A DNA stretch of 64,000 bases from a virus: positions 124,001 to 188,000 of the IMG/VR virus record IMGVR_UViG_3300027668_000008; one strand, 5' to 3'. Position 1 is the first letter of the stretch. Each line of letters begins with the position of its first letter. Positions 20,024-27,880 of this stretch are shown here, piece after piece. The notes beneath the pieces were generated by a model. That model was not told where the DNA came from and ran no database searches. It saw nothing but the letters and a program-made list of their open reading frames with translations. Both the position numbers and the translations under genes were made by a program.

Positions 20024-20458
20024 TTACTTAATTTCGATTGTTTTTGGCTTCTTAGACTCTGGAATAATCTTTTCCAATGATACTGTAAGTAAACCATCTT
20101 TTAGTTCTGCACCCTGTGTTACCATATCTTCTGCAAGTGTGAACTTTCTAACAAACTGACGTTTTGAAATACCTTTATGTATTACGCCAGGTTCTGGCTC
20201 TTGCCCTTCATCTGATACTACAGATTTGATGATTAGCTCGTTTTCGATAGTTTTGACTTCAATGTCGTCTTTACCGAATCCTGCTAATGCAACTTCAATA
20301 GTATATGTAAGGTCACCTGTTTTAATGATATTGTACGGTGGGTAATTCAACTGGTTACCTGAGCTCATACGTTCGAAAGAATCGAACATCTCGTCAAAGC
20401 CGATTGTCATCGGGCGTAATTGGTTGAAAAATGATAGATTTGTTTTGTATTGTGTCAT
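20024..20458 (-). CDS. Hsp20/IbpA small heat-shock protein
   Basis: ATP-independent holdase chaperone. The 144 residues include an N-terminal arm (LRPMTIGFDEMFDSFERM), the alpha-crystallin domain (about 38-125: VALAGFGKDDIEVKTIENEL, GISKRQFVRKFTLAEDM, LKDGLLTVSLEK) and a short tail with the IPES start of the usual tail region. Hsp20 genes are common in T4-like marine phages, where they may help capsid or tail assembly. Both a sigma70-like promoter and a late box lie upstream. Confidence 0.95.
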   Translation of the reverse strand: MTQYKTNLSFFNQLRPMTIGFDEMFDSFERMSSGNQLNYPPYNIIKTGDLTYTIEVALAGFGKDDIEVKTIENELIIKSVVSDEGQEPEPGVIHKGISKRQFVRKFTLAEDMVTQGAELKDGLLTVSLEKIIPESKKPKTIEIK

Positions 20459-25590: not shown

Positions 25591-26265
25591 TTATATACTA
25601 ATATTTAGTTGTTTAAGTCTAGGGTTGACTACTAGTTCAGCCCAGTCTTTATGTGCTTGTTCGCCTGGGTGATCTGCTATCCATTCATAATTGTAATCAT
25701 CTGTAAACTGCCAAAGTCCGCTTTTTTCTTCATGAAACATCCAATTATTCCAATTTACTTGATTCCATAATTGTTCTATATAATGTTTCTCATCATTTGT
25801 TTTTAGTTTTTCAAAAAATGAATTATCACGTTTATTCATATCCCAATCTGCGTAAACCATATCTCCCATATGGGAGAACAAAACAGGAATATTATTTACT
25901 TTACAAGTATTTTGTATTAATAATATATATTCTAATGTTTTTGCAAATTGATTGAAATCTGTATAAAAGTATTTTAAGTAATTTTCTTTAGGGCCTGTAT
26001 AACTAGCACCTTCTGATTTGTATGCATTATATTCAGGCATATACCAATCATAACGTTCAATAGTACTCCACATAATAACTACTGCTTCAGTACTACTATC
26101 AATGTTGTCTAACACTCTACGAGCAATTAATCTGTTACCTGCTCCACCTATTGCTACATTTTTAGAATTTGGGATAAAGTTGGGCCAGTGTTTATAATCG
26201 ACATCATTATTATTGACGTCTTTGTGTGATCCGATTGTAAAACTACAACCACTACATAATATCAT
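25591..26265 (-). CDS. SGNH/GDSL-type hydrolase-like protein
   Basis: The 224-residue protein starts LCSGCSFTIGSH (putative nucleophile Ser8 in a G-C-S context), continues with VAIGGAGNRLIARR (block II/III Gly and Asn), and has DHPGEQAHKDWA near the C-terminus (Asp and His of the triad). This is the SGNH esterase/acetylhydrolase layout often seen beside phage fibre or glycan genes. Substrate unknown. Confidence 0.7.
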   Translation of the reverse strand: MILCSGCSFTIGSHKDVNNNDVDYKHWPNFIPNSKNVAIGGAGNRLIARRVLDNIDSSTEAVVIMWSTIERYDWYMPEYNAYKSEGASYTGPKENYLKYFYTDFNQFAKTLEYILLIQNTCKVNNIPVLFSHMGDMVYADWDMNKRDNSFFEKLKTNDEKHYIEQLWNQVNWNNWMFHEEKSGLWQFTDDYNYEWIADHPGEQAHKDWAELVVNPRLKQLNISI

Positions 26266-26310
26266 TGAATACCTCTTATTGTAATATACTTATCTTATCT
26301 TATTTTAACC

Positions 26311-26339
26311 AAAAAAAATCCCCAGGCAGAGTGGGGATT
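26311..26339 (-). terminator. Rho-independent terminator after tmRNA
   Basis: On the minus strand AATCCCCA, a short loop, TGGGGATT and then a run of T. A strong stem with U-tract at the 3' end of the tmRNA region. Confidence 0.85.
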
Positions 26340-26748
26340 TAAAATTACTTGGTACTTTTTATATATCTGTATATAGTTCGTCACGTTCACTGAAACGTGT
26401 GCAATTAGAAAGTGTATTTCCATGTTACCAGTGTATGCTTGTAACAATCCTTTGTCACTAATGTTTCTAACTTTGGTATATGCAACGATTTCTGTTGCTA
26501 GGTACGTTGCCAACCCCCACGTGCTTATTTTACTAAGCCGCTAATGCCATTTCTGGCTGATAATTGTTATTTGCAATTATAAAGTTTCTTCGCGATAACG
26601 GTGCTTAGATCCCGAGAACTCCACTAACTCTAGTAATTACCTGTCGATCCTATTCATCCCCATATGAAAAATCTGTTGTATTTGGTGGAGATGCCGGGAT
26701 TCGCACCCGGGTCCAGTTTAACTTTTGAATTGCTTCAACGTTCTAAGT
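26340..26748 (-). ncRNA. ssrA: Circularly permuted two-piece tmRNA
   Basis: Rescues stalled ribosomes and tags the nascent protein for proteolysis. On the minus strand the acceptor piece comes first: GGACCCGGGTGCGAATCCC (T-arm), then CATCTCC-ACCA ending at 26683. After a 21-base spacer the coding piece begins GGGGATG (26655-26661), which pairs with CATCTCC. It holds the tag frame 26533-26574 encoding ANNNYQPEMALAA and then TAG. The ALAA end is the Clp degron. Pieces in this order mark the permuted tmRNA of alphaproteobacteria. Outer boundaries are approximate; the 3' part to the terminator should contain pseudoknots. Drawn from motifs and pairing, not from a model search. Confidence 0.93.
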
Positions 26749-26751
26749 ATA

Positions 26752-26780
26752 TTTATACACTATTCACTTGACTTTGTCAA
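26752..26780 (-). promoter_or_regulatory. Sigma70 promoter of tmRNA, with embedded late box
   Basis: TTGACA (26775-26780), 17-base spacer, TATAAA (26752-26757). The -10 is part of TATAAATA (26750-26757), so both host and phage late polymerase could use it. Confidence 0.75.
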
Positions 26781-26796
26781 CCAAATAATATACAAA
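26768..26796 (+). promoter_or_regulatory. Sigma70-like promoter for the plus-strand block, divergent from tmRNA
   Basis: TTGACT (26768-26773), 17-base spacer, TACAAA (26791-26796). Its -35 forms the palindrome TTGACTTTGTCAA with the -35 of the tmRNA promoter. Confidence 0.45.
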
Positions 26797-26865
26797 TAAA
26801 GTACTAATATTAAAAATAAAAGATAAGTATTCTATAAAAGCAAAATACATCAACTAAAGGTAATT

Positions 26866-27114
26866 ATGAAGAAATTAAGAACTTACACGTTTATTGACGG
26901 AGAAGACACAAAAACAATCGAAGCCCTATCTTATAGGAAAGCAGTAAGATCATTCCAAGGTGGATCAGAAAGCAAAGTTGTTAGAGTAGAATGGGAAGCC
27001 AAAAAAGGCGGTGAATACGAAAAGATCCAAACATTACCCTTAGGTAGAAAAATAAGACAAGCGGCAATAATACAAGCGAAAAAAGATATTGCCAAAGCAA
27101 AGATCGGAAAATAA
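26866..27114 (+). CDS. Small basic protein, unknown
   Basis: An 82-residue protein with beta-type N-terminus (LRTYTFIDGEDTKTIEALSY) and a Lys-rich helical end (QAAIIQAKKDIAKAKIGK). A mixed strand-then-helix structure with 20 or so basic residues suggests RNA or DNA binding, by inference. First gene of a four-gene plus-strand unit ending with speD. Confidence 0.65.
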   Translation: MKKLRTYTFIDGEDTKTIEALSYRKAVRSFQGGSESKVVRVEWEAKKGGEYEKIQTLPLGRKIRQAAIIQAKKDIAKAKIGK

Positions 27115-27116
27115 AC

Positions 27117-27272
27117 GTGAGTGTAAATCATAACCCAATAATGAAACAACTAGTAAAACTAATTGTGAAACTTCGTATGTCCTATGCAGATATCAGAGGA
27201 CACCACGGTAAAAAGTGGAACTATGAACCAAGTAAGAATTACATGGGCATGGCTAAACGAAGAGTCAAGTAA
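27117..27272 (+). CDS. Small basic protein, unknown
   Basis: Open from GTG at 27117 (51 residues) or ATG at 27141 (43 residues) to TAA at 27270-27272. Sequence includes KQLVKLIVKLRMSYADIRGH, then HGKKWNYEPSKNYMGMAKRR. It fills the gap between two plus-strand genes with normal spacing. Start uncertain, no ribosome site is clear. Confidence 0.5.
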   Translation: MSVNHNPIMKQLVKLIVKLRMSYADIRGHHGKKWNYEPSKNYMGMAKRRVK

Positions 27273-27279
27273 GGAATAA

Positions 27280-27474
27280 ATGGCTGGAGTCAAAGCAAGA
27301 GGCATTATCTCTGTTAATAACAAGAGAATGCGAGAAAACGCAAACGGCGAGTTAACTGAAGTAAGACCTGTAAAATATTACGGTGCAGGTTCAAATGGTA
27401 GAATGTGTGGTAGCATCGATGGTGAAATGATCGTAGATGACAATGGAAGACCCATACCTTTAAGCCAGTGTTAG
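27280..27474 (+). CDS. Conserved small phage protein, unknown
   Basis: A 64-residue protein starting MAGVKARGIISVNNKRMREN, with VKYYGAGSNGRMCGSIDGE and VDDNGRPIPLSQC. Gly-rich beta-type pattern. AAGGAA precedes the start. It resembles small conserved proteins of marine phages but no function is known. Confidence 0.65.
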   Translation: MAGVKARGIISVNNKRMRENANGELTEVRPVKYYGAGSNGRMCGSIDGEMIVDDNGRPIPLSQC

Positions 27475-27478
27475 ATTT

Positions 27479-27880
27479 ATGGAACATCTTGTACATAAAC
27501 ATATTATCATCAGAGCTGATGTAATAAATCCACCGTTAGATGCTACAAGTACATCTGACAGTGTAAAAGAATTAATTCAACAAATAGGTATGAAAATACT
27601 TATGGGACCTTACGCAACATATTGCGATATGCCAGGTAACAGAGGTCTTACAGTTGCAACAATAATAGAAACTTCACATATAGTATTACATTCATGGGAC
27701 GAATCAAGTCCTGCTAATCTACAATTAGATGTTTATACTTGCGGTGAGTTTAATCCCCAAATAGTATTCGATTGGTTAAAACAATTTAACCCTGTCAGAG
27801 TAGACTACAAATACTTAGACAGAGAACACGGTTTAACCGAAATAGATATACACCCCTCAACAGTAAATATAGCAGTTTAA
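27479..27880 (+). CDS. speD: S-adenosylmethionine decarboxylase proenzyme
   Basis: Makes decarboxylated SAM, the aminopropyl donor for spermidine. The 133-residue protein matches the bacterial SpeD length. ETSHIVLHSW places the self-cleavage Ser66 (future pyruvoyl group) and His71, and VYTCGE gives Cys88; spacing agrees with SpeD of bacteria (Ser63/His68/Cys83). The residue before Ser is Thr where Glu is usual. speD is a known auxiliary gene of cyanophages. It ends the plus-strand unit and is followed by a bidirectional terminator. Confidence 0.88.
   Translation: MEHLVHKHIIIRADVINPPLDATSTSDSVKELIQQIGMKILMGPYATYCDMPGNRGLTVATIIETSHIVLHSWDESSPANLQLDVYTCGEFNPQIVFDWLKQFNPVRVDYKYLDREHGLTEIDIHPSTVNIAV

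Follow-up and report, generated by a model that had tools for sequence, protein, structure and literature searches.

A circularly permuted tmRNA gene in a T4-like jumbo phage, and protein genes nested between the tmRNA pieces of its relatives

Two-piece tmRNA genes in marine phages are already known and common. In 2022, 53 two-piece tmRNA structures were reported from the genomes of cultured phages, 50 being of marine or aquatic origin, and the ssrA gene of Methylophilales phage Melnitz was described (PMC9004378). The promoter of the Melnitz ssrA was called early, and an early-only use was proposed (PMC9004378). The tmRNA database of 2025 holds 79 phage sequences of all forms (PMC11915505). 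The original prediction for the locus studied here took phage copies to be rare, which agrees neither with the 53 structures nor with our scan, in which at least 120 viral contigs match a restrictive pattern of the acceptor-to-coding junction. ARAGORN calls a permuted tmRNA in most of the contigs listed. The tags among them include ANDNYQPEMALAA (L019 and L021), ADSQGFALAA and ANDNFASEDFALAA. Unusually long tags were observed in the phage tmRNAs L034, L038, L055, L065, L042, L043 and L047, for example ANDNALSNVTFVDFSAPVTAVNEDFALAA (29 aa) and AKKSTTFASILPVKVERVSLVQEALAASA, which is without the ALAA end.

Identity and anatomy of the gene

The source is a 306,714-bp virus record of a T4-like jumbo phage, and the stretch of 64,000 nucleotides analysed here (G000:C1:124001-188000) is called the window. 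The phage is a myophage with a gp23 capsid protein (PF07068, E 2.3e-99) and a gp21-type protease (PF03420, E 3.3e-29). A replication set of T4 type is present (UvsX, a UvsW-like helicase, a DnaB-like helicase and an ssDNA-binding protein), together with a class I ribonucleotide reductase (RNR). The capsid gene is closest to those of Vibrio phage 2.275.O and of the jumbo phages PA5oct and GAP32, with about 69-72% nucleotide identity.

A complete permuted tmRNA gene is located on the minus strand at 26,780-26,309 of the window. According to ARAGORN, a permuted tmRNA (tmRNA*) lies at 26442-26775 on the minus strand, with the tag ANNNYQPEMALAA followed by two stops. The Rfam model RF04321 (tmRNA_permuted) gives 112.7 bits (cut-off 47; E 3.5e-21), and RF01849 (alpha_tmRNA) gives 107.0 bits (cut-off 50; E 3.2e-28); the full model is covered in both cases. 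The three detectors thus concur with one another and with the original prediction of a phage-encoded circularly permuted tmRNA. The acceptor piece lies 5' of the coding piece, and this alpha-type permuted order fits both covariance models. With a probability of about 0.86, we regard the locus as a functional two-piece (circularly permuted) tmRNA gene of alpha type, belonging to a T4-like jumbo phage.

The features are collected in Table 1. The acceptor piece reads, in order, the long-helix strand AGAAC, the T-arm CCGGG-UGCGAAU-CCCGG, the acceptor strand CAUCUCC and the encoded ACCA. With the 7-bp acceptor stem CATCTCC/GGGGATG, the G3-U70 pair and the T-arm, a tRNA-Ala-like domain is present. 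The coding piece begins with the acceptor strand GGGGAUG, followed by the D-loop-like AUAGGAUCGAC, the pseudoknot PK1, the tag frame and the 3' pseudoknot region. The codons of the tag frame are GCA AAT AAC AAT TAT CAG CCA GAA ATG GCA TTA GCG GCT TAG TAA; an Ala codon is first, and the hydrophobic ALAA end is followed by a double stop. In the genome scan, this exact tag is encoded in no bacterial genome contig. No similar sequence was found in plasmids, and named phages gave only short matches of about 35-40 bases. The pairing of the acceptor stem, the CCA end, the T-arm, the ALAA-ended tag, the sigma70 promoter whose -10 is also a late box, and the terminator had all been proposed from the sequence alone, and all were borne out, as was the span 26340-26780; the strand of the gene is minus.

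Sequence homology with the relatives stops near 26479. The 3' stem of the coding piece reads GCAACU/AGUUGC in two relatives. Between the coding piece and the terminator lies a hairpin-bearing trailer of about 140 nt. The trailer hairpin and the downstream GACGARC are common to the window, the related contigs L363 and L350 and, in varied form, L370, in which the stem CACG/CGUG is changed to CACA/UGUG. The genes divergent from the tmRNA (26866-27880, plus strand) include an S-adenosylmethionine decarboxylase gene (27479-27880), which is retained beside the tmRNA in relatives.

Table 1. Positions of the features of the tmRNA locus, 5' to 3' on the minus strand of the window, and of the nested gene in three related contigs
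Feature	Position	Strand	Basis or remark
Promoter TTGACA-N17-TATAAATA	26750..26780	-	sequence; conserved ahead of phage tmRNAs
sigma70 -35 TTGACA	26780-26775	-	sequence
-10 TATAAA, doubling as T4 late box TATAAATA	26757-26750	-	sequence
Acceptor piece, first in transcript, 5' end predicted	26683..26744	-	RF04321 alignment; compensatory changes
Intervening segment, 21 nt, removal in maturation expected	26662..26682	-	sequence; relatives
Coding piece, 3' end approximate	26480..26661	-	RF04321 and RF01849 alignments
Pseudoknot PK1, 5' of tag; stems CGG/CCG and GCA/U(C)GC	26592..26614	-	covariation
Tag reading frame GCA...GCT encoding ANNNYQPEMALAA, then TAG TAA	26530..26574	-	ARAGORN and sequence
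3' stem of coding piece GCAACG/CGUUGC	26482..26510	-	alignment
Trailer hairpin CACGUU-UCAGUG-AACGUG, then ACGAAC	26382..26399	-	alignment
Intrinsic terminator AAATCCCCACTCTGCCTGGGGATTTTTTTT	26309..26340	-	stem 26340-26316 and T run
Nested membrane-like protein gene	L363:9403-9741; L364:9018-9344; L370:1501-1845		wholly between both tmRNA pieces

The promoter and the late box

The promoter sequence occurs only once in the window, ahead of the tmRNA. Its recurrence was counted in 107 distinct genes among the tmRNA-selected viral loci listed; the window's own gene, to which the counting pattern is blind, is included only in the analysis in which similar flanks were removed. In these loci TATAAATA, where found, is in register, mostly 65-69 nt 5' of CTCCACCA. 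An exact TTGACA at N17 precedes 28 of the 46 boxes located 5' of tmRNAs, against 2 of the 154 TATAAATA located elsewhere in the same loci listed (Fisher p 8e-20, relatedness not corrected). When loci with similar spacer or upstream sequence were removed, the exact -35 was found in 20/27. The six -35 positions carry 1.2-1.5 bits, and most spacer positions carry less than 0.5 and are near random. In the promoter-first direction, CTCCACCA lies within 120 nt in 24 of the 117 viral contigs with TTGACA-N17-TATAAATA; about 1.5 would be expected from the CTCCACCA density in those promoter-selected loci. The recurrence, at a fixed distance 5' of tmRNAs, of a sigma70 promoter whose -10 doubles as a T4 late box seems undescribed in the open-access papers searched.

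It could be argued that TATAAATA is only a strong sigma70 -10 and has no late role, since five of the six bases of TATAAA fit the sigma70 -10 and the -35 has no mismatch. Against this, all eight bases of TATAAATA are in register in 44 loci when exact matches are required. In addition, a second phage tmRNA group has an early promoter of T4 type, TTTACA...TGTGGTATAAT, whose -10 is TATAAT, and a separate TATAAATA follows 5-13 nt downstream; this points to selection for early as well as late control. Thus, we consider a purely sigma70 role rather unlikely, and favour the dual use of the box.

A late box is altogether absent ahead of several other phage tmRNAs. The window contains ten TATAAATA boxes, compared with 11.55 by chance, so that the total is not above chance; nine of the ten are on the gene-rich minus strand, and most are located 12-165 nt before an ORF start. 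One box lies 120 nt upstream of the gene of an Hsp20-type small heat-shock protein (phrog_432; 20024-20458, minus strand). The gp45 C-terminal domain was not detected in the phage, and the same search detected none in the controls either. No gp55 was identified for this phage, and the late role of the box is a prediction. In T4 late promoters, the box is located about 6 nt before the transcription start. By analogy, transcription would start near 26742, where the acceptor piece is predicted to begin.

Conservation and proposed action

The structure of the RNA was assessed in an alignment of 19 related phage genes (A1), using 30 named pairs. Standard pairs are formed in 93.8% of the pair cells, and both-sided (compensatory) changes are present at 14 of the 30 pairs, in 83 cells; the 19 relatives are not independent, so that these counts overstate the number of events, and the slid control retains the relatedness. 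None of the 500 shuffles reached the real values of pairing and compensation. The covariation score is 0.414, compared with 0.122 for the shuffled and at most 0.060 for the slid versions. The slid controls are only 30-44% paired, a comparison in which the tested structure has an advantage, as it was defined on the window sequence. Compensatory changes are present in the acceptor stem, the T-arm, the long helix and both PK1 stems. In PK1, whose two stems both pair ahead of the tag, pair 2 of stem 1 changes between C-G and G-C, and the last pair of stem 2 between U-A, A-U and G-C. The G3-U70 pair is unchanged in 19/19 genes. According to minimum free energy (MFE) folding, the whole transcript is modestly better than shuffles (z -2.57).

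These features bear on two other readings of the locus. The RNA might act as a decoy, blocking trans-translation in the host by binding its SmpB, AlaRS or ribosomes. This kind of inhibition has a precedent in phage DS6A, for which an inhibitory tmRNA-like RNA without a tag frame was reported (PMC11915505). The tag frame, PK1 and the ALAA end are retained here, and an inhibitor would not need these, so that a decoy is quite improbable. Alternatively, the phage might have acquired a host tmRNA that is now a functionless, decaying passenger. This would agree with the absence of SmpB and with the linker 3' of the acceptor stem, which lacks one base compared with most relatives (as it also does in L123-L127 and L363), but is scarcely credible in view of the compensatory changes across the clade, the open tag frame with its ALAA end and double stop, the conserved phage-type promoter and terminator, and the gene order including the tmRNA, which persists in relatives whose RNR identity is as low as about 52%.

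Returning to a functional tmRNA, we infer the following steps of action from the anatomy and conservation described above and, for the steps after transcription, from tmRNA biology. Host RNA polymerase could initiate from TTGACA-N17-TATAAA, while the overlapping TATAAATA is also suited to the phage late transcription machinery, so that transcription may occur both early and late in infection. The promoter thus predicts early-to-late expression, in contrast to Melnitz, for which a purely early role was proposed. The transcript would begin with the acceptor piece, at its predicted 5' end, and extend to the terminator about 430 nt downstream. Host tRNA-processing enzymes would remove the 21-nt spacer, giving two base-paired pieces, and host AlaRS would charge the acceptor stem, in which G3-U70 is the alanine signal. 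Host SmpB and EF-Tu would deliver the tmRNA to ribosomes stalled on broken mRNA; the stalled product would be tagged with ANNNYQPEMALAA and released, and the ALAA-ended tag would lead to proteolysis. The likely benefit is a supply of free ribosomes through the whole infection, while mRNA is cut and host tmRNA is no longer replaced.

SmpB was not detectable in the phage record (306,714 bp, perhaps incomplete) or in nine further phage records, of which most carry a permuted tmRNA. Therefore host SmpB is assumed, and with no SmpB of its own the phage would not be self-sufficient in trans-translation. Genes for permuted tmRNAs are common in phages, their structure is maintained and their control is of phage type; thus, phages of this group appear to supply the ribosome-rescue RNA themselves and to rely on host SmpB.

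A ClpP-like protein (PF00574; 49895-50503, minus strand) with a plausible Ser-His-Asp triad is encoded beside the UvsW-like helicase. As a gp21-type protease is present near gp23, the ClpP-like protein is not needed as the head protease. Its nearest named relatives are from Sinorhizobium phage Phosso (55.8%) and Synechococcus phage BUCT-ZZ01 (48.5%), and both phages have a permuted tmRNA. A link between ClpP and the tmRNA does not hold as a rule: ClpP occurs without a permuted tmRNA in PA5oct, GAP32 and Vibrio phage 2.275.O, and the tmRNA without ClpP in Melnitz and HTVC008M.

The intervening segment and comparison with known systems

The 21-nt intervening segment of the window is without an ORF, whereas the close relatives L364 and L363 have ORF-bearing segments of 347 and 361 nt. 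In both contigs the gene order around the window's tmRNA is retained, and the RNR of L363 is 88-90% identical to that of the window. L363, L364 and a third IMG/VR relative, L370, have the dual promoter and the tmRNA like the window, and L370 shares the promoter, RNA and trailer. Unlike the window, all three encode a protein of 108-114 aa in a segment of about 350 nt (112 aa in L363 and 108 aa in L364; L370 carries a third version, and the three versions are divergent). In L363 and L364 the nested ORF has its own Shine-Dalgarno-like sequence, starts within about 20 nt of the CCA and ends 4-8 nt before the GGGG. RF04321 spans each nested-gene locus at 102-107 bits. In the case of L363, ARAGORN misreads the tag as GTPTLVLIG, which is the end of the nested protein. 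The pairwise dN/dS values are 0.18, 0.18 and 0.33, and the differences are mostly at third codon positions; these values indicate that the membrane-like protein is under purifying selection. A scan of viral contigs with the nested protein gave four loci, all of them tmRNA-nested versions.

Intervening segments of 142-499 nt, several with ORFs, were observed in other phage permuted tmRNAs: L245:2572-2730 (Melnitz), L244 (minus strand), L219, L186 and L255 (Phosso). Different ORFs, which share a KIPKYLSG.R motif, are located in the segments of Melnitz (142 nt) and L244 (499 nt). The tmRNA of jumbo phage Phosso spans 603 nt (PV764938.1:349596-350198).

We lean towards the view that the permuted tmRNA locus of marine T4-like phages is a module, in which an overlapping early/late promoter drives one transcript with both tmRNA pieces, and the intervening segment, whose excision the tmRNA requires, is a slot for phage protein genes; the window's copy would then represent the empty slot. 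A protein gene nested between tmRNA pieces seems undescribed in the open-access papers searched. It would be a new mode of gene packing, in which the maturation of the tmRNA and the fate of a messenger are linked.

One of the closest described systems is the ssrA of Melnitz (MZ577097), an isolated phage. Like the window gene, it is an alpha-type permuted tmRNA of a T4-like marine myophage (RF04321 113.4 bits, RF01849 106.7 bits), and the same TTGACA-N17-TATAAATA dual promoter precedes it. Unlike the 21-nt segment of the window, the Melnitz segment of 142 nt has an ORF, and the tag is ANDNYVPVDYALAA instead of ANNNYQPEMALAA. Melnitz also has a glutamine riboswitch 3' of the coding piece (RF01739, 52.8 bits), whereas a search of 26200-26900 of the window for RF01739, with E values up to 1 admitted, gave none, and neither a riboswitch nor another Rfam family was found there. 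Pelagibacter phage HTVC008M (KC465899) likewise has a permuted alpha-type tmRNA (RF04321 90.6 bits), at KC465899.1 (L246:1265-1606), where it is not annotated in the record. Unlike the window gene, it closely follows an upstream ORF and is without the dual promoter. Its tag, ANFNEYALAA, differs from ANNNYQPEMALAA, and the earlier suggestion of a SAR11 host is not supported by this SAR11 phage. Compared with the Rfam families RF01849 and RF04321, the window gene matches in full length above the cut-offs, and differs in its phage-type promoter and in having one base fewer after the acceptor stem.
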